From contig NZ_JHYY01000023.1 of the NCBI RefSeq assembly GCF_000621205.1, forward strand, positions 62,001 to 126,000: a stretch of 64,000 nucleotides of DNA, given 5' to 3'. The translations under genes were made by a program, and so were the position numbers. The stretch is from Halotalea alkalilenta DSM 17697 (GTDB lineage Bacteria > Pseudomonadota > Gammaproteobacteria > Pseudomonadales > Halomonadaceae). Under the pieces are notes generated by a model. That model was given only the letters and a program-made list of their open reading frames with translations. It was not told where the DNA came from and searched no databases. Positions 25,746-40,400 of this stretch are shown here, in pieces; positions within the stretch are counted from its first letter, which is position 1, and each line of letters begins with the position of its first letter.

Positions 25746-26402
25746 TCACCGACTCGCGTCGATTTCGTCCCAACGATCCTCCATTACCACCTCGTCCAGC
25801 GACCGACGGCGGTCCCACCCCTCGAGCTCGAGCATCGGCCCGGGATAGAAGCGCTCGACATGGCCAAGACAGAGGATCGCGATCGGCTCGACTCCCGCAG
25901 GCGCCTGGATCAGGTCACGCACAGCGTCCGGTTCGAACAGCGATACCCAGCCCATGCCGAGCCCCTCCGCGCGCGCGGCAAGCCAGAGGTTCTGGATCGC
26001 GCAGCTGGCAGACGCGAGATCCATCTGTGGCAGCGTGCGCCGGCCGAACACGTAGCGCTCGCGATCAGCGCCGAGCGCGACCACCAGCACCTCGGCGCAC
26101 TCTCTGATACCTTCGACCTTGAGCCGCATGAACTCGGCGCCGCGTTCGCCAAGCGCCTCGGCAGTCGCCTCGCGCTCGCGGTCGACCAGCGCGGCGAGCG
26201 CGGCACGGCGCGCGCCATCGCGAATCCGCACGAACCGCCAAGGCTGCATGTAGCCGACGCTGGGCGCGAGGTGAGCCGCGTTGATCAACCGTGCCAGCAG
26301 CGCTTCATCGATCGGTTTGGAAAGGAAATGACGCATATCGCGCCGCTCCTCGATCGCTCTGTAGACCCCGCGACGTTCGGCTGGATCGAAACCGGACTCC
26401 AT
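25746..26402 (-). CDS. bluB: 5,6-dimethylbenzimidazole synthase BluB
   Basis: The protein has 218 residues (Sinorhizobium BluB about 227). It has a flavin-destructase/nitroreductase fold with the BluB motifs RRDMRHFLSKPIDEALLARL, LAPSVGYMQPWRFVRI, and GRRTLPQMDLASASCAIQNL. BluB breaks down FMNH2 with oxygen to 5,6-dimethylbenzimidazole, the lower ligand of B12. The ATG at 26402 is chosen because AGGAG sits 7 nt upstream; an ATG at 26408 leaves only 1 nt. It is the last gene of cobT-cobS-cobU-cobC-cbiB-bluB; the base activated by CobT is thus made by the same operon. Confidence 0.94.
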   Translation of the reverse strand: MESGFDPAERRGVYRAIEERRDMRHFLSKPIDEALLARLINAAHLAPSVGYMQPWRFVRIRDGARRAALAALVDREREATAEALGERGAEFMRLKVEGIRECAEVLVVALGADRERYVFGRRTLPQMDLASASCAIQNLWLAARAEGLGMGWVSLFEPDAVRDLIQAPAGVEPIAILCLGHVERFYPGPMLELEGWDRRRSLDEVVMEDRWDEIDASR

Positions 26403-26419
26403 CGGCATTCTCCTGGTGG

Positions 26420-27349
26420 TTAAGCTCCGGCGAGCAGCAGCGCGGCGCTGAGCAGCACCAGCCAAAAGACCAGCGCGCGATCGATCAGACGGCACGCACG
26501 CAGGATGTCGGCGGCCTTGGCGGGGCGCCCCTGGCCAAGCTCGCCGCGTTGCTGGAGCACGCCATGATAGCGGCTCGGCCCACCGAGACGCAGCTCGAGC
26601 GCACCGGCACCGGCAGCCATCACCGGCCCCGCGTTCGGGCTCTTCCAGCGGCGCCCCTGGCGCCAGGCGCAGGCGAGGGCGAGCCGCGCGGCCCTCGCAC
26701 TGCCGCTCGCACAGGCATAGGCGAATACCGTCAGACGCGCCGGGATCCAGTTGAGCAGGTCGTCGATACGCGCCGCGGCCCAGCCGAACCGCCGATAGCG
26801 AGGGTTCTTGTAGCCCCACATCGCATCCAGGGTATTGGCGCAGCGATACAGCACCACGCCCGGCAGCCCCAGCACGGCGAACCAGAAAAGCGCGGCGTAG
26901 ATCGCATCGCTGCCGTTCTCGAGCACCGACTCGGTGGCCGCGGTAGCGATGCCGGTCTCGTCGAGTTCGGCGGTGTCACGACTGACGATCATCGCAAGCG
27001 CCCCACGCGCCTGGTCGAGTTCGCCATGGCGCAGCGGCTCGGCCACTTGGCCTGCATGTTCGATCAGGCTGTGCCAGCCGATCGACAGGTAGACCACCAG
27101 CGCCGCCACCAGCACATAGAGCAGCGTCCCCTCCAGCGCAGCCTGGAGCACTACCGCCAGCGCCACAGGGCCCGCTACCACCGCGACCCAGGCCAGCAGG
27201 CCCCTGGCGCGCGCATGGCGCTCGCCATGCGCGCGTGCCTCGATCAGGCCGACCCAACGCCCCAGGCCAATCAGCGGGTGCCAGCGCCGCGTCTCGCCGC
27301 ACAAACGGTCGAGCAGACAACCTAGCAGCAGCGCCGCCAGCGCGGTCAC
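26420..27349 (-). CDS. cbiB: Adenosylcobinamide-phosphate synthase (CbiB/CobD)
   Basis: This 309-residue integral membrane protein begins TALAALLLGCLLDRLCGETR and contains RWHPLIGLGRWVGLIEARAH, SRDTAELDETGIATAATESV, ENGSDAIYAALFWF and a C-terminal GAGALELRLGGPSRYHGVLQ. CbiB amidates adenosylcobyric acid with the aminopropanol (or its phosphate) arm. The start is GTG at 27349, set by GAGGAGG upstream and by a GTGA overlap with the cobC stop. It lies 17 bp before bluB. Named cobD in the aerobic-pathway convention. Confidence 0.93.
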   Translation of the reverse strand: MTALAALLLGCLLDRLCGETRRWHPLIGLGRWVGLIEARAHGERHARARGLLAWVAVVAGPVALAVVLQAALEGTLLYVLVAALVVYLSIGWHSLIEHAGQVAEPLRHGELDQARGALAMIVSRDTAELDETGIATAATESVLENGSDAIYAALFWFAVLGLPGVVLYRCANTLDAMWGYKNPRYRRFGWAAARIDDLLNWIPARLTVFAYACASGSARAARLALACAWRQGRRWKSPNAGPVMAAGAGALELRLGGPSRYHGVLQQRGELGQGRPAKAADILRACRLIDRALVFWLVLLSAALLLAGA

Positions 27350-27987
27350 GGCCCCTCCTCCACGCCTTGGGGAGCGCCGAAGTGCTCGAGCCTGACCCAC
27401 TGTCGATGGGGGCACGCATGATCCACGCCGACCCGGAAGCGCACGAGCCCGGCGTAATCGAGTCCCAGCGTCGCCAGCCGGGCGGCGTCGAGTCCGGGCA
27501 GCCCGAGGTGCGCCACAAGCCACCCCTTGATCACCCCAGCATGGGTGATCACCATCACCCGCTCGCAGGGCGGAGAAACCAAGCGCTGCCAAGCACGCTC
27601 GATGCGGCTGCGAAACGCGGACACCGGTTCCCCTCCCGGCGGCGGCGAAGCCTCGGGGTCGGCCCAGAACGCGGCCAGCTCCTTGGGATGTTCGCGGGCG
27701 AGGCGCTCGAGCGGCACCCCGTCCCAGGCGCCGAAGTCGATCTCCTCGAGCTCCTGGTCGATTTCCAGCGGCAGCGCCCAGCGCTGCGACAGCCGCTCGG
27801 CGCTCTCGCGGCAGCGCTCCAGCGGTGAGCTCACCAGACGATCGGGTGGCCGCAAGCGAAGCGCCGCCCGCTCGAACTCGACCCGCCCCTGCGGGCTGAG
27901 CGCCACATCGGTGCGACCGCGCAGACTCGAAGCCCCCTCGCAGGCGCCGTGTCTCAGGCAGTCGATCACCATCTCGCGGCTATGCAT
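27346..27987 (-). CDS. cobC: Alpha-ribazole phosphatase (histidine phosphatase family)
   Basis: This 213-residue phosphoglycerate-mutase-like protein has the phosphohistidine motif CLRHGACEG near the N-terminus, SSPLERCRESAERL, EIDFGAWDG and a second catalytic His in VMVITHAGVIKGW. CobC (Salmonella name) removes phosphate from alpha-ribazole phosphate or adenosylcobalamin phosphate. The ATG at 27987 overlaps the cobU stop by 8 bp and has AAGGGG upstream. It overlaps the next gene by 4 bp. It is distinct from the aerobic-pathway 'CobC' (threonine-phosphate decarboxylase), which is not in the window. Confidence 0.92.
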   Translation of the reverse strand: MHSREMVIDCLRHGACEGASSLRGRTDVALSPQGRVEFERAALRLRPPDRLVSSPLERCRESAERLSQRWALPLEIDQELEEIDFGAWDGVPLERLAREHPKELAAFWADPEASPPPGGEPVSAFRSRIERAWQRLVSPPCERVMVITHAGVIKGWLVAHLGLPGLDAARLATLGLDYAGLVRFRVGVDHACPHRQWVRLEHFGAPQGVEEGP

Positions 27988-28501
27988 CCGGGCACCCCTT
28001 GAGGCACTGCGGCAGCCCCGCCACCACCCACCAGACGCGCTCCGCCCGCTCGGCGATCCGCTGGTGGAGGAGACCGCTCAGGTCAGCGAATCGACGCGCC
28101 AGCGCGTTCATCGGCACGCCCCCTTGACCGACCTCGTTGGATACCACCAGGATTCGGCCAGGCGCACCGGCGAGCGACGCGACCAGCGCGGCGCTGCGCT
28201 CCTCGAGCTGCTCCGGCGCCGCCAACAGTTGGTTACCGACCCAGAGAGTGAGGCAATCGACCAGCAGCAGCCGGGTCTCGCTCGCTTCGCGCTCGATCGT
28301 CTCGGCCAGCGCCAGCGGGGCCTCGTGCAGCCGCCAGCCGTACGGGCGACGGCTGCGATGCTCTGCGATACGCGCACGCATCTCGTCGTCCCCCGCCTGC
28401 GCGGTGGCGATGTAGTGGACTTCCAGTCCACTCGAGGCGGCCAGCCGCTCCGCGTGCAGGCTCTTGCCGGAGCGCATCCCGCCGAGCACCAGTTCGAGCA
28501 T
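27980..28501 (-). CDS. cobU: Adenosylcobinamide kinase/guanylyltransferase CobU (CobP)
   Basis: The protein has 173 residues. The ATG at 28501 has GAAGGAG 6 nt upstream. P-loop GGMRSGKS is at residues 7-14, then LHAERLAASSGLEVHYIATA, RIAEHRSRRPYGWRLHEAPL and VVSNEVGQGGVPMNALARRF. CobU phosphorylates adenosylcobinamide and transfers GMP to it, activating the corrinoid for CobS. It is 10 bp after cobS and overlaps cobC by 8 bp. Length is normal (Salmonella about 181). Confidence 0.94.
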   Translation of the reverse strand: MLELVLGGMRSGKSLHAERLAASSGLEVHYIATAQAGDDEMRARIAEHRSRRPYGWRLHEAPLALAETIEREASETRLLLVDCLTLWVGNQLLAAPEQLEERSAALVASLAGAPGRILVVSNEVGQGGVPMNALARRFADLSGLLHQRIAERAERVWWVVAGLPQCLKGCPDA

Positions 28502-28511
28502 AGTGACTCCT

Positions 28512-29303
28512 TCAGGTGCCGCCGAGCCGTATCGCCAGCACCAGGTAGATGAGGATTTCAGCGCCCTGCTGGGTGGCTCCCAGGGTATCGCCGGTGAAAC
28601 CGCCGATGCGACGCTTGAACCACTCGCGCAGCAGCGCGAGCAGCGCGGCCAGCGCCAACAGCAGCAGCAAGGTCGAGAAGAACCCACTCAACAGCAGCGC
28701 GAAGAGTACTCCGCTGCCGATGAGCAGGCAGAGATCGAAGCGCGATTGCGCGGTGCTGAGCGCGACCACCTTGCTTCGCTCGAGGCGCGCATAGGGCAGC
28801 AGCGAAATCATCGAGGTGGCCGCTATTCGGCTCAGCGAAGCACCGAGGATCAAGCCGACAGCGATCGCTCCCGGCTCGGCCGCCAGCGTGACCAGCAGGC
28901 CAAGACGCAGCGAGAAAGCGCAGACCAGCGCCAGCGCCCCATAGCTGCCCAGGCGTGAGTCTTTCATGATCTCCAGGCGGCGTTCGGCGGTCCATCCACC
29001 ACCGATGCCATCGGCGGTATCGGCAAGCCCGTCCTCGTGCAATCCTCCGGTGAGGATGATCAACGCAGTCAGGGTCGCCGTCGCTGCCACCCAGGTCGGT
29101 AAAACATTCGAGATAACGGTATAAAAAAGAGTAGCGAGCAGGCCCAGCAGTAGTCCCACCAAGCCGAAGTAGCGACGACAGCTCGCCATCTGGCCCTCGT
29201 CGACCCGCCCGCATGGCACCGGCAGCCGAGTGAGGAAGCCGACCGCAAGGCCGAACAGGCGCGCTTCTTCAGCACCGCGTCGGCGAATGCCAGCGAGGTT
29301 CAT
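28512..29303 (-). CDS. cobS: Adenosylcobinamide-GDP ribazoletransferase CobS
   Basis: This 263-residue polytopic membrane protein has the CobS active-site motifs: GGLHEDGLADTADGIGGG, the KDSRLGSYGALAL loop, and the C-terminal GGFTGDTLGATQQGAEIL. It joins adenosylcobinamide-GDP and alpha-ribazole (phosphate), the last assembly step of B12, at the inner membrane. It overlaps the cobT stop by 4 bp (ATGA). An early LTRLPVP motif (residues 24-30) is also typical. Confidence 0.95.
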   Translation of the reverse strand: MNLAGIRRRGAEEARLFGLAVGFLTRLPVPCGRVDEGQMASCRRYFGLVGLLLGLLATLFYTVISNVLPTWVAATATLTALIILTGGLHEDGLADTADGIGGGWTAERRLEIMKDSRLGSYGALALVCAFSLRLGLLVTLAAEPGAIAVGLILGASLSRIAATSMISLLPYARLERSKVVALSTAQSRFDLCLLIGSGVLFALLLSGFFSTLLLLLALAALLALLREWFKRRIGGFTGDTLGATQQGAEILIYLVLAIRLGGT

Positions 29304-30388
29304 ACCTTGACGCCCGCTTCCTCGAAGCTGGCCATCTCATCGTAGAACGCCAGTGCCGCGCGCATGAGCGGCAGCGCAAGCGCCCCCCCCGCCCCCTCGC
29401 CGATCCGCAAGCCAAGCTGCATCAATGGTTTGGCTTCGAGCCACTCGAGCAGCAGCGCGTGGCCCTTCTCGCTCGAGCAGTGGGCGAACAGCAGGTAGTC
29501 CCGCACCGCCGGCACCAGCGCACAGGCCAGGAGCGCCGCGACACAGGAGACGAAGCCATCGAGCAGCACCGGTACGGCCCTCTCGGAGGCACCGATCAGC
29601 GCGCCAGCCATGGTGACGATCTCGAAGCCCCCCAGGCGCGCCGCCAGCTCGAGCGGATCGCCTCCCGCCGGCCCCTGGTGCAGCGCCAGCGCGCGAACCA
29701 CCAGCTGCTTCTTGCGCAGCAGGGTGCGAAGATCGACCCCGGTACCGCGACCGACGCAGGACTCCACGGCGAACCCCGTCAGCGCAGCCATCAGCGCGGC
29801 TGCGGCGGTGGTATTGCCGATCCCCATCTCGCCCACGCAAAGCAGATCCATCCCCCGCTCGGCCCGCTCCAGGGCCAGCCGCCGGCCATTGTCGAGCCCG
29901 AGCAAGGCCTGCTCGCGGGTCATCGCCGCCGCCTGGTGCAGCGCCTGGGTACCCTCGCCGAGCCGCCGCTCGACCAAGCCCTCACTGGGCGGCAGCGCGG
30001 CAAGGATGCCGCAGTCGACCACCTCGAGCGCCATCCCGACCTGCCGGCAAAAGACATTGACCGAGGCGCCACCGGCCAGGAAGTTGCCGACCATCTGCCT
30101 GGTCACCGCGCTCGAAGTGATCGATACCCCTTCGCTCGCGATACCGTGGTCGGCGGCGAATACCAGCATCCTCGGTGCGACCAGCCGCTCGGCGGTAGTG
30201 ACACCGCGCAGCTCGGCCAGCGCCACCAGCCGCTGGGCCAGCTCCTCGAGCGTACCTAGCGCGCCGAGCGGCTTGGTCTTGGCGTCGATGCGGGCCTGGA
30301 TCGCCTCGAGCCGGACAGCGGGCAGCCGCGCCGCCAGCGGTGCGACCAAGGAGGCGGAGATGGCGGAAGACGAAAGCTCGCAGGTCAT
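29300..30388 (-). CDS. cobT: Nicotinate-nucleotide--dimethylbenzimidazole phosphoribosyltransferase CobT
   Basis: The protein has 362 residues with the ATG at 30388 (Salmonella CobT 356); an in-frame ATG at 30424 adds 12 residues and neither has a good Shine-Dalgarno site. Family motifs: KTKPLGALGTLEELAQRLV, VFAADHGIASEGVS, GEMGIGNTTAAAALMAAL, GRGTGVD and GLRIGEGAGGALALPL with the catalytic Glu. CobT transfers phosphoribose from nicotinate mononucleotide to dimethylbenzimidazole. It is the first gene of the minus-strand lower-ligand operon, which diverges from the riboswitch-controlled unit. Confidence 0.95.
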   Translation of the reverse strand: MTCELSSSAISASLVAPLAARLPAVRLEAIQARIDAKTKPLGALGTLEELAQRLVALAELRGVTTAERLVAPRMLVFAADHGIASEGVSITSSAVTRQMVGNFLAGGASVNVFCRQVGMALEVVDCGILAALPPSEGLVERRLGEGTQALHQAAAMTREQALLGLDNGRRLALERAERGMDLLCVGEMGIGNTTAAAALMAALTGFAVESCVGRGTGVDLRTLLRKKQLVVRALALHQGPAGGDPLELAARLGGFEIVTMAGALIGASERAVPVLLDGFVSCVAALLACALVPAVRDYLLFAHCSSEKGHALLLEWLEAKPLMQLGLRIGEGAGGALALPLMRAALAFYDEMASFEEAGVKV

Positions 30389-30454
30389 AGGGCGTGCCCG
30401 GGGTGGGGAAAGGCGGATGAACATAGCAATCGCGCCCGGTCAGCTCAAGCCCGA

Positions 30455-30484
30455 TTGACGCGCTCCGACGCCCCACCCTAGGAT
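30455..30484 (+). promoter_or_regulatory. Sigma-70 promoter of the cobalamin riboswitch transcript
   Basis: TTGACG (30455-30460) and TAGGAT (30479-30484) are separated by 18 bp, a good housekeeping-type promoter. The predicted start site would be near 30491, directly at the 5' edge of the riboswitch. It is oriented towards the chelatase-cobO-cobB unit. Confidence 0.65.
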
Positions 30485-30489
30485 AGGTC

Positions 30490-30675
30490 CGATCCAAGGT
30501 GCCTCGCCTGGAAGCTGGCGAGGATAATCGGGAAAGCGATGTGAATTCGCTGCTGTCCCCGCAACGGTGATCGAGTGCCCCATGCGAAGCCACTGTCGAG
30601 CGTCAGGCCGACGGGAAGGCGCATGGTGCGGGTGAGCCATCTCACCGCCTCGTCAGCCCGGAGACCGGCCTTGGG
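30490..30675 (+). promoter_or_regulatory. Cobalamin riboswitch
   Basis: All diagnostic conserved blocks occur in order: AAGGTGCC at the 5' side, AATCGGGAAAGCGATGTGAA, GCTGTCCCCGCAACGG (the B12-box core), GCCACTG, GGGAAGG, and a final AGCCCGGAGACCGGCC. This is the classical B12 element, which binds adenosylcobalamin and lowers expression when B12 is plentiful. It leads by about 190 nt into the chelatase-subunit gene on the plus strand. No intrinsic terminator is visible after it, so control may be at translation or through Rho. No equivalent element fits upstream of the divergent cobT. Confidence 0.96.
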
Positions 30676-30864
30676 ACGATATCCATGCTCTGCCATGCGC
30701 ACGGGACGATGCGCGGCGCGCCGAGAAGCATTCCTCGCTACGATCGTACGGCGCATCGCCCTGCGTTCGAAGCCACTCGCCGCCCGCCTGTCGCCCCTCC
30801 CGCCGTGTCGGAGCGATCACCCAACCGTCGCTTCGCGCGCCGGGCCGATCGCGAGCAATGTCCG

Positions 30865-32595
30865 ATGAGCGATGCCACCGCCCCAGCCGAACCCACACCT
30901 GGCTTTCCGTTCGTCGCGGTAGTCGGCCAGGAGATGCTCAAACGCGCCCTGCTGCTCGCCACCGTCGAACCGCGGCTCGGTGGCGTGCTGATCCAAGGCC
31001 CGCGCGGGGTGGCGAAGTCGACCCTCGCCCGCGGGCTCGCCGATCTGCTGCCCTCCTCCACTGCCCGCTTCGTCGACCTGCCGCTCGGCGCCAGCGCGGA
31101 GCGGCTGACCGGTTCGCTCGATCTCGAGCGTGCGCTGCGTGACCGCGCGCTGGCCTTCCAGCCCGGGCTGTTCGCCGCCGCCGATGGCGGCGTGCTCTAC
31201 ATCGACGAGGTCAACCTGCTCGACGACGCACTGGTCGATCTGCTCCTCGACGTCGCCGCCTCCAACGTCAACCGGGTCGAACGCGACGGGCTCAGCCACG
31301 CCCACTCCGCGCGCTTCGTACTGATCGGGACGATGAACCCCGAAGAAGGCGCGCTGCGCCCGCAGCTCTGCGACCGCTTCGGGCTGTCGGTGGCCATGGA
31401 GGCGTACACCGGGGTCGAGGCACGGATCGACATCGTCCGCGCCCGCCTCGCCTTCGAGGCCGACCCAGAAGCCTTCATCGCCCGCCACGCCGCTGCCACC
31501 CGCGCGCTCAAACAGCGCCTGCTCGAGGCGCGCGCGAGGCTGTCCGATGTCACCATCGCACCAGGGCTCGAGCGGCTGATCGCCGAGCGCTGCATCGCGG
31601 CCCAGGTCGACGGGCTGCGCGCCGACATCGCCTGGCAGCGCGCCGCACGCGCCCAGGCGGCGCTTTCGCATCGGCTCGAGGTCGCCCTGGAGGATATCGA
31701 TGCGGTCGAGCCGCTGGTGCTCGACCACCGCCTCGACGAGGCCTCCGCGCCACCACCGGCTTCGACGCCACCCTCCACCCCCGTGCCGGGCGGCGGGAGA
31801 AGCGCAAGCTCGCTGCTCCCCGCAAGCGCGGGTCACAACTCGGGAACGCGCGCCGCGCCGCGCGGCGATGGCGAAGGCTGTAGCGCCCAGCGTCATCTTC
31901 AACCAGAGCGAGGCGATATCCGCTTGCCTGCGCCCACCGCGCCATCGCGACCGCATTCCTACCGCGGCGCGAAGCGAAGCACTGCTGCCTCTGCGCGCGG
32001 GCCGGTCGACTGGTTCGCCACCTTGAGCATGGCGGCCAATCGCGGCCCGGGGCCGCTGCGCGCCCTGGCCCGCCGTGCGCCGGCCGCGCAGGCGCCGGTT
32101 CAGACCCTGGTGCTGCTCGATCTTTCCGCCTCGACGCTCTCCCATCGTGCGCTCGATGCAGCCGCCGGCCGGGTACTCGGGATCGCGAGGCGCAGCCGCC
32201 GCTTGCGCCAGCGCTTCGCCGTGCTCGGCTTCGGCGCCGGACGCCTCGACTGGATCTGCGACGCTCGTCGCGCGCCGGGCGATCTCGCTCAGCGCCTCGC
32301 ACGGTGCCAAGCCAGGGGCGGCACCCCGCTGATCGCAGCACTCGCCGAGGGGCGGCGGATGCTCGACCAGCGACGCCGCCGCCTGCCAGGTGTCGAGCTC
32401 GACACCTGGCTGATCGGCGACGGACGCTGCCGCGAGGATTTCTCCACCCAGCGCCGATGGCCGGGCCGGCTGCGGGTGATCGACAGCGAGCGCGGCCGGG
32501 TGCTTCTCGGCCGCGCCAGAACCCTGGCCGAAGTGCTCGGCGGCGACTACCAAAGGCTCGATGAAGGCCGTGACGACCGAGGAGCAAGGCAATGA
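30865..32595 (+). CDS. Cobaltochelatase/magnesium chelatase-type AAA+ and VWA subunit (ChlI/ChlD-like)
   Basis: The protein has 576 residues. The N-terminal AAA+ domain has Walker A GPRGVAKS (45-52), Walker B VLYIDEVNLLDD (110-121) and sensor segment LIGTMNPEEGALRPQLCDRF. A Pro/Ser/Arg-rich linker (about 295-395) joins a C-terminal von Willebrand A domain with MIDAS residues Asp419-x-Ser421-x-Ser423 (LLDLSAS). Such single-protein chelatase motors partner with CobN to insert cobalt into hydrogenobyrinic acid diamide, replacing the CobS/CobT pair of other aerobic bacteria. It is the first gene behind the riboswitch and overlaps cobO by 4 bp. The ATG at 30865 is chosen because residues upstream lack homology. 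Confidence 0.88.
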   Translation: MSDATAPAEPTPGFPFVAVVGQEMLKRALLLATVEPRLGGVLIQGPRGVAKSTLARGLADLLPSSTARFVDLPLGASAERLTGSLDLERALRDRALAFQPGLFAAADGGVLYIDEVNLLDDALVDLLLDVAASNVNRVERDGLSHAHSARFVLIGTMNPEEGALRPQLCDRFGLSVAMEAYTGVEARIDIVRARLAFEADPEAFIARHAAATRALKQRLLEARARLSDVTIAPGLERLIAERCIAAQVDGLRADIAWQRAARAQAALSHRLEVALEDIDAVEPLVLDHRLDEASAPPPASTPPSTPVPGGGRSASSLLPASAGHNSGTRAAPRGDGEGCSAQRHLQPERGDIRLPAPTAPSRPHSYRGAKRSTAASARGPVDWFATLSMAANRGPGPLRALARRAPAAQAPVQTLVLLDLSASTLSHRALDAAAGRVLGIARRSRRLRQRFAVLGFGAGRLDWICDARRAPGDLAQRLARCQARGGTPLIAALAEGRRMLDQRRRRLPGVELDTWLIGDGRCREDFSTQRRWPGRLRVIDSERGRVLLGRARTLAEVLGGDYQRLDEGRDDRGARQ

Positions 32596-33200
32596 GCGAC
32601 GACCAATCGGCTCAACAAGCCCACCGAACCAGGATGGCGGCGAAGAAGCGGGTGGTCGACGAACGCATCGCCCGCGCCCAGGAGAGCAGGGGCGTGCTCA
32701 TCCTGCTCAAGGGCAATGGCAAGGGTAAGAGCAGCTCCGCCTTCGGTACCCTCGCCCGCGCGCTCGGCCACGGCCAGCGCGGCGGAGTGATCCAGTTCAT
32801 CAAGGGGCGACGCGAAACCGGAGAGCATCTGTTCTTCCGTGACCATCCGCGGGTCGATTTCCACGTCATGGGCCACGGCTTCAGCTGGGAGACCCAGGAC
32901 CTGGCCCGCGACCGGGAAGCCGCCGAAGCGGCTTGGGAGCTCGCCGAGCGGATGCTGGTAGATCCGGGCTACCAGATCCTGGTGTTCGACGAACTCTCCT
33001 ACATGCTCAAGTACGGCCACCTCGATGCTCGACGGGTCGCGGCCGCGCTGAGCGGGCGCCCGCGCGAGCAGAACGTGATCATCACCGGACGCACCATGGC
33101 CAACGCGCTGACCGAGATCGCCGACACGATCAGCGCGGTCGCCGACGAGCGTCATGCGTTCCGTCTCGGGGTCAAGGCCCAGCCGGGGATCGAGTACTGA
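32592..33200 (+). CDS. cobO: Cob(I)yrinic acid a,c-diamide adenosyltransferase CobO (BtuR/CobA)
   Basis: The protein has 202 residues. P-loop GNGKGKSSS (41-49), GGVIQFIKGRRETGEHLFF and LVFDELSYMLKYGHLD are diagnostic of the CobA/CobO/BtuR family. It attaches the 5'-deoxyadenosyl group to reduced corrinoids, in both synthesis and salvage. The ATG overlaps the chelatase-subunit stop by 4 bp, and the TGA overlaps the cobB ATG by 1 nt. It is therefore under the riboswitch. Confidence 0.95.
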   Translation: MSDDQSAQQAHRTRMAAKKRVVDERIARAQESRGVLILLKGNGKGKSSSAFGTLARALGHGQRGGVIQFIKGRRETGEHLFFRDHPRVDFHVMGHGFSWETQDLARDREAAEAAWELAERMLVDPGYQILVFDELSYMLKYGHLDARRVAAALSGRPREQNVIITGRTMANALTEIADTISAVADERHAFRLGVKAQPGIEY

Positions 33201-34522
33201 TGGCTAAACCGATGGGTCCTTTGGGCAAAGAGCCCTGCTGCCCGGCACTGTTCATCTCGGCGTTCGCCTCGGGCCAAGGCAAGACCACGGTGACCGCTGC
33301 GCTGGCGCGGCTGCATCGCCAGCGCGGACGCCGAGTGCGGGTATTCAAGACCGGCCCCGACTATCTGGATCCCTTGATTCTCGAACGCGCCGCCGGCAAC
33401 CCGGTCGAACCGCTGGATCTATGGATGACCGGCGAGGCACGCTGTCGAGAAGCGCTGCACCTGGCGGCCGGCAGCGCCGATCTGATTCTGATCGAGGGTG
33501 CGATGGGGCTTTTCGACGGCACGCCCTCGAGCGCGGACCTCGCGATCGCGCTGGGCATTCCGGTGGTGGCGGTGATCAACGCACGCGGCATGGCCCAGAG
33601 CGTCGCCGCCATCGCCCATGGCCTCGCCCATTTTCGCCCGGAGTTGAAGCTCGCCGGAGTCGTCGCCAACCAGCTCGGCAGCGACCGCCACCGCGCGCTG
33701 ATCGAGCAGGCGCTGCCGCCCGAGACGCCGCTGCTCGCGGCGCTGCCGCGTAATGAAGCGCTGGCGCTGCCCGGCCGACATCTGGGCCTCGTGCCGCCGG
33801 ACGAGCAGCCCGATCTCGAACGAATCATCGCTGCGGCGGCAGGCGCCATGGCCGATAGCCGCCTCGCTGAGCTGCCCACGCCGATTTCCTTCCCCGCGCC
33901 CGAGGCACTGCCAGCCGCGCAGCGCTTGCTCGAAGGCGTGCGCATCGCGATCGCCCGCGACCAAGCGTTCAGCTTCGTCTATCCCGCCAACCTGCGCTTG
34001 CTCGAAGCGATGGGCGCAAGGCTTGCGTTCTTCTCACCGCTCGTCGATGGCGCCCTGCCCAAGGCCGATGCGCTGTGGCTACCCGGCGGCTACCCCGAAC
34101 TGCACGCCGAGCGGCTGGCGGCCAATACTCAGATGGCAGCGGCGCTGCGCGCCTTCCATGCCGAGGACAAGCCGATCCTCGCCGAGTGCGGCGGGATGCT
34201 CTACCTGCTCGACAGCCTGCGCGATCTCGACGGGCGCACGCACCGGATGGCGGGCCTGCTGCCGGGACGCGGCGAGATGCGCGACCGCTCCGGCTGCCAA
34301 GGCATGCAGAGCGCACCGCTGCCTGAGGGCGAGATCCGCGGTCATGCCCACCACCGCTCGCGCAGCTACGACATGCCGGCACCGATCGCTCACGGCATCC
34401 GCCCGAGCCATCCAGCGCCGGGCGAGGCGATCTATCGCCAAGGCAGGCTGACCGCGAGCTACCTGCATCTTTACTTCGCCTCCAATCCGCAGGCGATCGG
34501 CACGCTGTTCGCCCCGTCATGA
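33200..34522 (+). CDS. cobB: Cobyrinic/hydrogenobyrinic acid a,c-diamide synthase CobB (CbiA)
   Basis: The protein has 440 residues. An N-terminal dethiobiotin-synthetase-like P-loop, ASGQGKTTVTAALARL (23-38), and KTGPDYLDP bind ATP. A C-terminal class I glutamine amidotransferase domain carries the nucleophile Cys330 in LAECGGMLYLL plus RGHAHHRS and a conserved His in YLHLYF. It amidates the a and c side chains before cobalt insertion. The ATG lies 1 nt inside the cobO stop. It overlaps the next gene by 4 bp. Confidence 0.95.
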   Translation: MAKPMGPLGKEPCCPALFISAFASGQGKTTVTAALARLHRQRGRRVRVFKTGPDYLDPLILERAAGNPVEPLDLWMTGEARCREALHLAAGSADLILIEGAMGLFDGTPSSADLAIALGIPVVAVINARGMAQSVAAIAHGLAHFRPELKLAGVVANQLGSDRHRALIEQALPPETPLLAALPRNEALALPGRHLGLVPPDEQPDLERIIAAAAGAMADSRLAELPTPISFPAPEALPAAQRLLEGVRIAIARDQAFSFVYPANLRLLEAMGARLAFFSPLVDGALPKADALWLPGGYPELHAERLAANTQMAAALRAFHAEDKPILAECGGMLYLLDSLRDLDGRTHRMAGLLPGRGEMRDRSGCQGMQSAPLPEGEIRGHAHHRSRSYDMPAPIAHGIRPSHPAPGEAIYRQGRLTASYLHLYFASNPQAIGTLFAPS

Positions 34523-34920
34523 CCGGCACGCGCTATGCCCTCGGCGTCGGCTTTCGACGTCACTGCGAAATCGACGAGCTGGTGCGGCTGGTCGAAGCCG
34601 GGCTCGGCGCGGCGGGTCTGGAATCGCAAGCGATCACTTGGCTTGCGAGCATCGACGCCAAGCGCGGCGCGAGCCAGCTCGATGCGCTGGCGGCGCGCTT
34701 CGGCTGGAATGTCGAACTTTGGCCGGCCGAGCGGCTGGCGGCGACCCCCGGGGTGCACCAGCATTCACGCCTCGCCTCGCGGCTGCTCGGCAGTCCAAGC
34801 GTCGCCGAAGCGGCGGCACTGGCCTCGCTGTCAGAGCGTGGCCTGGAGTCCCCGTCGCTGAGGCTGGCAACGCAGCGCTCCCCGGCAGCCACGGTGGCGA
34901 TCGCCGAAGCGTGCGGCTAG
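34519..34920 (+). CDS. cobE: Cobalamin biosynthesis protein CobE (CbiG C-terminal-like)
   Basis: This 133-residue protein matches the single-domain CobE/CbiG-C family: LGVGFRRHCEIDELVRLVEA, then LASIDAKRGASQLDALAARF and the end block LRLATQRSPAATVAIAEA. CobE is needed for corrin ring synthesis in the aerobic pathway; its exact chemistry is unclear. The usual G-x-G-C-R-R start is altered (GVGFRRHC). It overlaps cobB by 4 bp. It shares a CTAG stop with the convergent MFS gene. Its presence hints that ring-synthesis genes exist elsewhere. Confidence 0.85.
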   Translation: MTGTRYALGVGFRRHCEIDELVRLVEAGLGAAGLESQAITWLASIDAKRGASQLDALAARFGWNVELWPAERLAATPGVHQHSRLASRLLGSPSVAEAAALASLSERGLESPSLRLATQRSPAATVAIAEACG

Positions 34921-36221
34921 GCGCCTTCGCGCAGCGCGTGCAGCTTGAACCAGGCGACCAGCAGGGCGACCAACAGCAGTACGGCGATGAAACCGGCGAC
35001 GCCCGGCCATCCGGCGAGGTGCCAGAAGAAACCACCGCTGGTGCCGGCGAGCGAGGAGCCGAGGTAGTAGCTGAACAGATAGAGCGAGGAGGCCTGAGCG
35101 CGCGCTACCGGTGCGCGCTTGCCTACCCAGCTGGAGGCGGTGGAATGAGCGGCGAAGAAACCGAAGGTGAACAGCAGCACACCGGCGAACACCACCACGA
35201 TCGGCGTCCACAGGGTCAGTGCAAGCCCTGCCAGCATCAGGGCGACGAACCACCAGAACACCCGAGGCCGGCCGAGCCGGTCGGCCAGCGCCCCGCCCCA
35301 GGCGGAACTGTAGATGCCGGAGAGATAGACCACCGAGATCAGCCCGACCACGCTCTGGCTGTAGCCGTAGGGTGCGCCGAGCAAGCGGTAGCCAAGGTAG
35401 TTGAACAGGGTGACGAAGCCGCCCATCAGCAGGAACGCCTGGAGGAACAGCCACGGCAGCCCAGGGTCGCGGAAGTGACGGACGAAGCCATCCTGCAGGG
35501 TGCGCAGGTCGAGGCGACGGGGAGAGAAGTTGCGCGAAGGCGGCAGCATGCGAATGAAGGCAAGCGCGCTGACCAGCGATACGCCGCCGAGCACCATCAG
35601 GGTGGCACGCCAGGAGATGAAATCGACCAGCACGCCGCTGATCAGTCGCCCGCTCATCCCACCGATCGCGTTACCGCCGATGTAGAGCCCCATCGATACC
35701 CCGAGGGCGCGTGGCGAAACCTCCTCGCCCAAGTAGGTCATCGCCACCGCGGCGAGTCCGGCGAGCGACAGCCCGACCAGCGCACGCATCGCCAGTACCC
35801 CGCCCCAGCTCGGCATCAGCGCGCCGAGCAGGGTGAACAGCGCGGCGGCGAGCAGCGACACCGACATCACCTGCTTGCGCCCCACCGCGTCCGAGATCGG
35901 CCCGGTGACCAGCAGGCCCAGCGCCAGGGTCGCGGTGGAGACCGACAGGACCAGGCTCGAACGCGCCGCATCGATGGCGAAGGCATCCGACAGCACCGGC
36001 ATCAGCGGCTGCACGCAGTAGAGCAGCGCGAAAGTGGCGAAACCGGCGGAGAACAGCGCCAGCATGGTGCTCCGGTAAGCGCGGGTGCCACGTTCGATGT
36101 AGCGCGGCTCGACCAGCGCACCGAACTCGTCTTCGAGCCGTCGCTCGGCCTGTGCCTGGATAGAGGGAGAAGCTGGTGGACGTTTGGAACCACGGCGCTT
36201 GGAGCGCGAAGCGGGCGGCAA
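34917..36221 (-). CDS. MFS transporter, YnfM-like
   Basis: This major facilitator protein of about 434 residues has twelve predicted helices. A charged N-terminal extension precedes helix 1 (LALFSAGFATFALLYCVQPL), the MFS loop 2-3 motif is GPISDAVGRKQVMSVSLLAA, and AMRALVGLSLAGLAAVAMTY follows. The start is uncertain: TTG at 36221 has AGAGGAG 5 nt upstream, while an ATG at 36236 and a TTG at 36245 lack such a site. It lies between cobE and cobW on the opposite strand, so it interrupts the B12 block. Cobalt or corrinoid transport is possible but not shown by sequence; YnfM-type exporters are typical drug/arabinose efflux proteins. Confidence 0.85.
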   Translation of the reverse strand: MPPASRSKRRGSKRPPASPSIQAQAERRLEDEFGALVEPRYIERGTRAYRSTMLALFSAGFATFALLYCVQPLMPVLSDAFAIDAARSSLVLSVSTATLALGLLVTGPISDAVGRKQVMSVSLLAAALFTLLGALMPSWGGVLAMRALVGLSLAGLAAVAMTYLGEEVSPRALGVSMGLYIGGNAIGGMSGRLISGVLVDFISWRATLMVLGGVSLVSALAFIRMLPPSRNFSPRRLDLRTLQDGFVRHFRDPGLPWLFLQAFLLMGGFVTLFNYLGYRLLGAPYGYSQSVVGLISVVYLSGIYSSAWGGALADRLGRPRVFWWFVALMLAGLALTLWTPIVVVFAGVLLFTFGFFAAHSTASSWVGKRAPVARAQASSLYLFSYYLGSSLAGTSGGFFWHLAGWPGVAGFIAVLLLVALLVAWFKLHALREGA

Positions 36222-36342
36222 GGGAACTCCTCTCATCAGCGGCAACAGCGGCAGCAGCGGTCGCTCACCGACATAGTTAAATTTGGGTTAACCATACGCC
36301 GATCGGCGGTGCCCGATCAATTCACTCGCCAAGGATAGCCAC

Positions 36343-37422
36343 ATGCCCCATACCCCGAACCTCGCCAAGATTCCCGCTACCGTCGTCACCGGCTTTCTCG
36401 GCAGCGGCAAGACCACCCTGCTCTCCGGGCTGCTCAAACGCGCTCAGGGCAAGCGCATCGCGGTGATCGTCAATGAGTTCGGCGAACTGGACGTCGACGC
36501 CGAGCTGCTGCGCGGCTGCGCACTGGAGGACTGCGCCGCCGAGGAGCGAGCGGGTCGCGGTGGCATCTACGAGCTCGCCAACGGCTGCATCTGTTGCACC
36601 GTCGAGGAAGAGTTCCTGCCGGTGATGCTCGAGCTGGTCGAGCGTCGCGACGAAATCGACCACATCCTGATCGAGACCTCGGGGCTAGCGCTGCCCAAGC
36701 CGTTGGTCCAGGCCTTCAACTGGCCCGAGATCAAGCGCTCGTGCACCGTCGATGCGGTGATCACGGTAGTCGATGGCCCCGCCTTCGCTGCGGGTCGCGT
36801 GGCGGACTCCGAGCAGCGGGTCGAGGCCCAGCGCCTGGCGGATACGAGCCTCGATCATGACCCGACCCTCGCCGAGCTGCTCGACGACCAGCTCGGTGCG
36901 GCCGATCTGGTGGTGGTGAGCAAGAGCGACCTGCTCGACGAGCGCGCGCGTGCGCGCGTGGCCGATGGCCTCGCCGCGCGGCTGCCGGCCAGCGTCAAGA
37001 CGCTGTTCCTCGCCCACGGTGAGTGCGACCCGATGACGCTCACCGGGCTTGGGCTCGAAGCAGAGGCGCGGATCGAGCGGCTTCACACCCATCACGATCA
37101 TCATCACGCCGAGGGCCATGAGCACCATCACGCCCACGACGACTTCGACGGCCTGGTGATCGAGCTGGGCCGGGTAGACTCCGAGCGGCTGGAGTCGCTG
37201 CTCGCCGAGCTGATCGGCGCGCATGCGATCTACCGGGTCAAAGGCTTCGTCGACAACGGCAAGCCGATGCGCCAGGTCGTCCATGCCGTCGGCGATCGCC
37301 TGCAGCGCCATTTCGACCGCCCCTGGCGCGAGCAGGAGCAGCGTGCCACCCGACTGGTGGTGATCGGTCGCGAACTCGACCGCGAGGCGATCGAACGCCA
37401 CCTCGCCCCCGCCGCGGCTTGA
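36343..37422 (+). CDS. cobW: CobW-family G3E GTPase
   Basis: The protein has 359 residues. P-loop GFLGSGKT (17-24), the metal-binding CxCC motif in GCICC (Cys82, 84, 85), and a switch region LIETSGLALPKPL. A His-rich stretch at about 248-267 (HTHHDHHHAEGHEHHHAHDD) should bind or buffer Co2+. CobW proteins deliver cobalt to the B12 chelatase, using GTP. It lies 10 bp before cobN, which supports that role. The base-recognition motif reads SKSD rather than NKxD, as is common in this family. Confidence 0.94.
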   Translation: MPHTPNLAKIPATVVTGFLGSGKTTLLSGLLKRAQGKRIAVIVNEFGELDVDAELLRGCALEDCAAEERAGRGGIYELANGCICCTVEEEFLPVMLELVERRDEIDHILIETSGLALPKPLVQAFNWPEIKRSCTVDAVITVVDGPAFAAGRVADSEQRVEAQRLADTSLDHDPTLAELLDDQLGAADLVVVSKSDLLDERARARVADGLAARLPASVKTLFLAHGECDPMTLTGLGLEAEARIERLHTHHDHHHAEGHEHHHAHDDFDGLVIELGRVDSERLESLLAELIGAHAIYRVKGFVDNGKPMRQVVHAVGDRLQRHFDRPWREQEQRATRLVVIGRELDREAIERHLAPAAA

Positions 37423-37432
37423 CGAGGCCAAC

Positions 37433-40400
37433 ATGCATCTTTTCGCCGCCCAGCCAGGGGGATTCAGCGACGACGAGGGGATCGTCGATCTCGACCAGCG
37501 CCCCGCGCGTCTGGTGATCCTCTCCGCCGCCGACAGCACCCTGAGCCTGCTCGCGGACACCGCCGACGCGCTGCCGGCCGACTACCCGACGCTGCGCCTG
37601 GCCAACTGGCTCAACCTGGTCAAGCCGGCCGCATTCGATCTCTACGTCGACAAGGTGCTGGACGCCCGCTCGGCCGAAGCGCCGCACGGTACCGAGGTGG
37701 TGGTGGTGTCGCTGCTCGGTGGCGAGAGCTACTGGCGCTACGGCCTCGAGCGGCTGATCGAGTGGTCGAACCGCCCCGGGCGTCGCCTGATCGTGGTACC
37801 CGGGGAGGACTACGAAGACCAGAGCCTGCTCGAAGCAGGCAACGCCGGCACGCAGTGCGCCTATCGGGTCTGGCGCTACCTGCGCGAGGGCGGACGCCTC
37901 AACGCCCAGGCGCTCTATGACTTCCTCCGCGCCGAGCTGCTCGAACCCGGCGCCTGCCGCTGGCGCGAACCGCGAGTGCTGCCGCGCGCGCTGCTCTATC
38001 ATCCTCGACGAGGCGAGGCGACGCTCGAGGAGTGGCAGGCCGAGTGGCGCTCGCGCGGTGTCGCCGAGCGCCCGAGCGTACTGCTGGTGCTCTACCGCAG
38101 CCATCTGCAGGCCGCCGACAGCGGGATGTTCGACGCCCTGCTCGAGGTGCTCGACCGGGCCGGGCTCAATACGCTGCCGCTGGCGGTCGCCTCGCTCAAG
38201 GAGGCGGGCTGCCTGGAGACGCTCAACCAGCTGCTCGAACGCAGCGGGAGCGCGCTGATCCTCAACGCCACCGGTTTCGCGATCGGCTCGAAGGTCAACG
38301 ATGCCAGCGCGGTCGAGCCGAGCGAGTACCATTGCCCCTTTTCGCGTCGCGTGCCGGTGCTCCAGCTGGTGCTCGCCAGCACCACGCGCGAGGAGTGGGC
38401 GAGTCAGGCCCGCGGGCTGCGCGCGCGAGATCTCGCCATGCAGGTCACCCTGCCCGAGCTCGACGGCCGGATCATCACCCGGGCGGTGGCGTTCAAGAGC
38501 CACGCCCAGCGCCACGAGCGCAGCCAGATCGACAGCGTGCGTTTCGTCCTCGATCCCGAGCGGGCGGATTTCGTCGCCCGGCTCGCCGCGGCCTGGATCC
38601 GCCTCGCCCAGCTCGACAACGCCGACAAGCGCATCGCCCTGGTGCTGGCCAACTATCCGTCCAGCGATGCACGGATCGGCAACGGCGTCGGTCTCGACAC
38701 TCCTGCATCGACGATCAACCTGCTGCGCTGGCTCGAGCAGGCGGGCTATGCGATCGAAGGCGCCCCTGGGGACGGCGATGCGCTGCTCGAAGACCTGCGC
38801 GCCACGGTGACCAACCAGCTCGACGGCCTCGCCTACCGGCCAAGCAGCGAGAGCCTGCCGCTCGAGCAGTACCTGCGCCATTTCGAGCGTCTGCCGCAGG
38901 AGTGCCAGAGCGCGGTGCTGGCACGCTGGGGCGCGCCCTTTGAGGATCCTCGCTTTCGCGCCGAAGGCGCGAGCGGGCGCTTCACGATCAGCGGCCGGCG
39001 ATTCGGCGCCGTGTTCGTTGGCGTGCAGCCGGCGCGCGGCTTCGACATCGACCAGCAGGCGCTCTACCACGATCCCGACCTGGTGCCGCCCCACGGCTAC
39101 CTGGCGTTCTACTTCTGGCTGCGCGAGCGCTTCCGGGCCGATGCGGTGGTCCACGTCGGCAAGCACGGCAACCTCGAGTGGCTGCCCGGCAAGGGCGGGG
39201 CGCTCTCGAACGCCTGCTGGCCGGAGATCGCTCTCGGCCCAACGCCCCACGTCTATCCGTTCATCGTCAACGATCCCGGCGAAGGCGCCCAGGCCAAGCG
39301 GCGCGCCCAGGCGGTGATCATCGATCACCTGATGCCGCCGATGGCCCGCGCCGAGACCTATGGCGAGCTGGCCGAACTGGAGGAACTCGCCGATGAGTAC
39401 TACCAGGCGCTGGGAGTCGATCCGCGCCGTGAGGCAAGGCTCAAGACGCTGATCGCGGCCAAGGTGCGCGAGACCCACCTGGCCGAGGAGCTGGGCCTCG
39501 ATGCCGGGGGCGACGACCAGGCGCTGCTCGAGGAGCTCGACGCCTACCTGTGCGAGATCAAGGAGGCTTCGATCCGCAACGGCCTGCACGTGCTCGGCGA
39601 ACTGCCGGCGCGCGCGCAGCTGGTCGAGACGCTGGTCGCGCTGCTACGCCTGCCGCGCGGTGCTCAGGCTGCCGAATGCGGATTGCTCCACGCGCTGGCC
39701 AGGGATCTCGGCCTGCCCGAAGACTACGATCCGCTGGCCCCGGCCAAGGGACTCTGGCAGGGACCGCGCCCCGCCGCCCTCAGCGCGGCGGTGGCCTCGC
39801 CATGGCTCACCACCGGTGACACCCGCGAGCGTCTGGAGGCGCTGGCGCGAAAATGGGTCGACACCCTTCTCGAAGCAGGCGGCGAGGACGCCCGCGAGGC
39901 ACTGGCGGCGCTGCCCAGGACTCGCGCGGTGCTCGACTTCGCCCGCGCCTCGCTGCTGCCGGCGCTCGAGCGCAGCGCGACCAACGAACGCGCTGCGCTG
40001 CTCGAGGCCCTGGCCGGACGCTTCGTCGATCCTGGGCCGAGCGGTGCACCGACCCGCGGGCGCCTCGACGTACTGCCCACCGGGCGCAACTTCTACGCCG
40101 TCGACAGCCGCGCGATCCCGTCGAAGACCGCTTGGGCGCTGGGCCAGCAGGCGGCCGATGCGCTGATCGAGCGCTACCTGCAGGAGCACGGCGACTATCC
40201 ACGCAGCCTCGGCCTCTCGGTATGGGGCACCGCGACGATGCGTACCGGCGGTGACGACATCGCCCAGGCGATGGCGCTGATCGGGATCGAGCCGGTGTGG
40301 GCGGCGGGCAGCCAGCGGCTGATCGACTTTCGGATCATCCCGGCCTTCCAGCTCGGCCGCCCGAGGGTCGACGTCACGCTCAGGGTCTCGGGACTGTTCC

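Follow-up and report, generated by a model that had tools for sequence, protein, structure and literature searches.

The locus in the middle of the window (i.e., the whole 64-kb stretch of DNA that was analysed) raises the question of how a cobalamin riboswitch might control an operon whose first start codon lies far behind the aptamer and is preceded by no recognisable Shine-Dalgarno (SD) sequence. Taken as a whole, the evidence is best explained by a class-I-type (adenosylcobalamin) riboswitch that would shut down the chelatase-cobO-cobB-cobE unit at ample corrinoid supply, a reading to which a probability of roughly 0.7 is given.

Promoter, aptamer and the two divergent operons

The riboswitch is genuine, ordinary in kind and expected at its position, the 5' leader of genes for B12 metabolism. 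Using cmscan, positions 30480-30687 of the plus strand match RF00174 over all 189 model positions with 113.8 bits (E 9e-28; gathering cut-off 31.5 bits), such that the B12-box blocks at 30490-30675, which the first-pass annotation had taken for a cobalamin riboswitch, are borne out by the covariance model. The score is on par with those of the best relatives, and the aptamer of the sister species (G001) reaches 112.4 bits. Within the aptamer, the B12 box AGCCCGGAGACCGGCC is situated at about 30655-30670, and loop L5, belonging to P5/L5 GCUGUCCCCGC (30552-30562, plus strand), reads UGUCCCCG; it is thus of the UCCCG type and matches the kissing-loop consensus, UCCCG (PMC10653944).

Directly before the aptamer lies the sigma-70-type promoter TTGACG-N18-TAGGAT (30455-30484, plus strand; TTGACG from 30455, TAGGAT at 30479-30484), whose position had been given correctly. 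It is the sole promoter-like site above the scan threshold in 29400-31100 (0.1 expected), and its pattern, with at most one mismatch allowed, occurs once in the 64-kb window (0.11 expected by chance). The expected transcription start (about 30491) coincides with the 5' edge of P1. Most of the 40 riboswitch-chelatase leaders compared carry TTGAC/TTGCG-N17-18-TA[GC]GAT at a near-constant distance to the aptamer, with 12-17 nt between the -10 element and the first conserved aptamer block in most leaders. The plus-strand scan of 29400-31100 found no intrinsic terminator (hairpin plus U-run), as had been stated before, and the switch does not match the transcriptional-terminator subtype. A second riboswitch was found on neither strand of the 64-kb window, even at E<=1. 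The only other candidate in the genome is a compact, cobalamin-riboswitch-like match of 28.8 bits, i.e., below the cut-off (C5:134039-134169; L144:4040-4170), which is nearly identical in the sister species and precedes an ABC transporter operon followed by cobF; the ABC subunits encoded there are similar to BtuC and score highest with the models for EitA/EitC and F420-0 transporters.

The unit behind the switch consists, on the plus strand, of an AAA+/VWA putative cobaltochelatase subunit (30865-32595; AAA_5/AAA_lid_2, with TIGR02442/BchI-ChlI below cut-off), the corrinoid adenosyltransferase gene cobO/btuR (32592-33200), the a,c-diamide synthase gene cobB (33197-34522), both identified by profile matches, and a gene for a CbiG C-terminal/CobE-like protein (34519-34920; PF01890), in agreement with the gene content assigned at first. 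Beyond it follow cobW at 36343 and cobN at 37433. Since an MFS-type gene on the opposite strand (34917-36245) intervenes between cobE and cobW-cobN, cobN falls outside the riboswitch unit, and cobalt insertion would here be regulated only via the AAA+/VWA subunit; the earlier statement that the switch reaches cobalt insertion thus holds for this subunit but not for cobN. The MFS-type gene is conserved in G001 and G017, and in several relatives cobW-cobN directly continue the unit.

On the minus strand, family matches and synteny define a cobT-cobS-cobU-cobC-cbiB-bluB operon without a riboswitch (25746-30424). It combines nucleotide-loop assembly (cobS, cobU, cbiB, and cobC, whose product is a CobC-like phosphatase) with cobT and bluB; the name lower-ligand operon, used earlier for CobT-BluB, fits these two genes, both of which are present, and leaves aside the four others. 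Its first gene starts at 30424 or, better, at 30387; some 30-70 nt separate this start from the promoter of the plus strand. A candidate promoter for this operon, TTGAGC-N17-TATGTT (30420-30448, minus strand), has 8/12 matches and lies below the scan threshold; its candidate -10 element lying at 30420-30425, a cobT start at 30387 would leave an untranslated region of about 26 nt. The possibility that the cobT strand, or the region before bluB, conceals a riboswitch was considered and rejected, as no match exists at E<=1. Given the short distance to the plus-strand promoter as well, the earlier view that this operon lacks a riboswitch of its own is upheld, and the sequence is consistent with B12 feedback on only one of the two divergent arms.

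Promoter, switch and divergent cobT operon are conserved across genera of the Halomonadaceae, the relatives by CobT including loci of Kushneria and Halomonas. The layout of cobT operon, promoter, riboswitch and chelatase-cobO-cobB is common to the window and to G001, G017, G010, G031, G008, G036, and G016, with cbtB as a further gene between switch and chelatase in G010.

P13 and the starts behind it in the Halomonadaceae

Concerning the region behind the aptamer, the first-pass annotation had described about 190 nt of further leader. This length is right, but an expression-platform hairpin inside it had been overlooked, namely UGCGCA-CGGGACGA-UGCGCG at 30696-30715 (plus strand), which fits P13/L13 because its loop, CGGGAC, is able to pair with L5 (CCCG:CGGG or GUCCC:GGGAC). 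The loop now called L4 was initially considered as the partner of L13 and was dropped, the literature consensus (PMC10653944) pointing to UCCCG in L5. The sister species has exactly this hairpin, and the sequence around it hardly differs between the two members of the genus, whereas the rest of the leader has diverged. Nearly all of the 40 leaders possess P13 behind the aptamer (recognised by eye in G110 and G129), with the loop CGGG or, in a Halomonas-type group, GGUGG/GGCGG. Across eight divergent sequences, pairing is seen in 92% of the alignment cells, both partners are exchanged in two pairs, and the pairing is lost once the partner strand is shifted. The covariation does not rise above column shuffles, 90-345 of 500 of which reach the observed values owing to the few distinct sequences, and is therefore supportive rather than decisive.

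Ligand binding would favour the L5-L13 kissing loop, and this in turn would stabilise P13 and a closed structure downstream of it. What such a structure may close can be read from the relatives, in most of which an SD and a start codon adjoin P13. The first start behind P13 is that of the cobalt-transporter gene cbtB (Pfam PF09489) in seven leaders (G010, G029, G142, G134, G060, G125, and G163); cbtB was not detected in the genome of the window. In G110 and G129, the chelatase start itself follows immediately on P13. Among the 28 leaders without cbtB and with an SD plus start behind P13, 24 open there an ORF of 14-43 aa with an overlap of 4 or 8 nt between its stop and the chelatase start, compared to 14.1 +/- 2.3 when the interior is shuffled with frame and length kept; this count includes leaders from one and the same genus, which are not independent. 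In most relatives the closed structure would thus block the P13-adjacent SD of cbtB, of a coupled leader ORF, or of the chelatase. The arrangement suggests that translational gating at P13 may be relayed to the chelatase by coupling, and no description of such a leader-ORF relay in the Halomonadaceae was found in the literature searched, a search that was not exhaustive.

Concerning the origin of the leader ORFs, that of G006 corresponds, at both the DNA and the protein level, to the 5' end of cbtB of G029, a member of the same genus (g6). Within this one genus, a truncated relic overlapping the chelatase start (L148, G006) is found behind the riboswitch in one case and the full cbtB (L158, G029) in the other. 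The idea that the leader ORFs in general stem from a cbtB relic was rejected, since the relationship is clear only in this genus and suggestive in a few others.

The leader and the chelatase start in the genus of the window

In the window and in the sister species, the SD and start adjoining P13 are absent. Between P13 and the chelatase start extends an SD-less, C-rich leader of 150 nt that appears non-coding (30716-30864, plus strand). The ATG at 30865, before which a weak ribosome-binding region had been assumed, is present, but no SD was found for it; the only SD-like tetramer upstream, GGAG at 30810, has no start at a usable distance behind it. No SD within or next to P13 or a ribosome-binding-site hairpin, the mark of the translational subtype, was recognised in the window, where other structures involving the ribosome-binding site are possible. 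An SD-less ORF of 57 aa, beginning at 30695, ends on the chelatase ATG; it was ruled out as a conserved uORF, since an early stop codon truncates it in the sister species, and a coupled uORF with its own SD and an overlap with the next start is not found in the window.

An N-terminal coding extension through the leader was likewise rejected. In both species of the genus, the chelatase frame carries no stop all the way back across P13 and into the aptamer, and a GTG in frame behind P13 is present in G013, too, such that translation could begin upstream of 30865 (at ATG 30709 inside P13 or at GTG 30805), the former leader ORF being fused in frame and P13 holding the start codon. However, the leader substitutions between the two species are distributed over the codon positions as 5/3/3, which is not coding-like, versus 0/1/7 over the initial 180 nt of the gene, and most of them change the residue; moreover, a usable SD is lacking, and with such a G+C content open frames occur often. 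An upstream start is accordingly regarded as unlikely, and the substitution pattern makes 30865 the better start.

As the P13-adjacent start is gone, repression in this genus must act at 30865 and/or via Rho. It would be exerted at the SD-less region around 30865 via the fold of the leader, via access of Rho to the C-rich leader, or both; most likely it acts on translation, possibly together with Rho. Control by access to the ribosome-binding region or by Rho, as proposed in the first-pass annotation, is hence supported as probable in view of the missing intrinsic terminator, with the mode being deduced. The translational link is one read from the relatives, the window itself having neither SD nor start next to P13.

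Alternatively, the switch might work in this genus mainly by Rho-dependent termination in the untranslated leader, with P13/L13 controlling the exposure of a rut-like region at 30773-30832. This stretch is C-rich and G-poor; its 60-nt C-minus-G maximum of 17 corresponds to the 99.6th percentile of the window, and the leader of the sister species reaches 20, which is above any relative tested. The excess of C over G supports Rho weakly and, together with the lack of both an intrinsic terminator and an SD, makes this alternative possible, although rather doubtful: composition alone would be weak evidence, and some relatives with leader ORFs reach a C-minus-G of 15.

A further alternative, judged slightly less probable still than the upstream start, is that the aptamer is intact but uncoupled from its platform, such that B12 binding would now have little effect on the operon. 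This would agree with the disappearance of SD and start from beside P13 and with the fact that the two species share no conserved leader ORF, but an aptamer scoring as high as the best relatives and a P13 region nearly unchanged between species, while the remaining leader differs, argue against it.

Repression of the chelatase unit by the riboswitch thus continues to be the preferred reading, although several points weigh against it: no SD or start adjoins P13 in the window, the fold of the downstream leader is not unusually stable (z about 0 compared to shuffled sequence), the P13 covariation stays within the shuffles, and the relatives are not independent. The leader also contains a long imperfect hairpin at about 30738-30772, which comprises 17 perfect pairs in the sister species and is degraded in the window by one-sided changes; six of the interspecies leader differences fall here. 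That it might be a high-copy repeat was excluded, as each genome contains one other near copy, with further matches being weaker and scattered.

Comparison with known systems

The organization of the window's switch resembles that of Escherichia coli btuB (RF00174, translational type) in the aptamer, the B12 box, the L5 consensus, the complementary loop of P13, and the absence of a terminator, whereas it differs in lacking an SD both next to P13 and at the start codon and in its 150 nt of additional leader. For ppe2 of Mycobacterium tuberculosis, a relay from a B12 riboswitch by uORF coupling has been shown experimentally (PMC11260477). As in ppe2, the switch-adjacent SD of the relatives serves a short ORF that shares an NUGA overlap with the following start; phylum and target are different, however, the ORF of the relatives appears to descend from cbtB in one genus at least, and the window possesses no conserved uORF. 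A cobalamin riboswitch before cbtBA is known, e.g., from Herbaspirillum (PMC7011215), and cbtB is likewise the first gene behind the switch in the seven relatives mentioned, whereas in the window's genome the chelatase comes first. The layout of the relatives fits both the published kissing-loop models (PMC10653944) and the uORF coupling of ppe2 (PMC11260477).

What is added here is the family-wide pattern of P13, start and coupling, and its loss in the genus of the window. It is tentatively proposed, with somewhat less than even confidence, that the B12 riboswitch of the Halomonadaceae controls a short leader ORF, which in part represents a decayed cbtB and overlaps the cobaltochelatase start with its stop codon, and which would thereby bring about coupled repression, and that the genus of the window has lost this relay in favour of a different output (Rho, or structure at a start without SD), with aptamer and P13 being kept. 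One aptamer-P13 module is retained throughout, while the frame behind it has shifted from a cobalt transporter gene to a leader ORF, the chelatase, or nothing. The family therefore offers a natural series for testing how the output of a riboswitch is rewired, and also for testing whether passing on ribosomes is the only role of a relic leader ORF.
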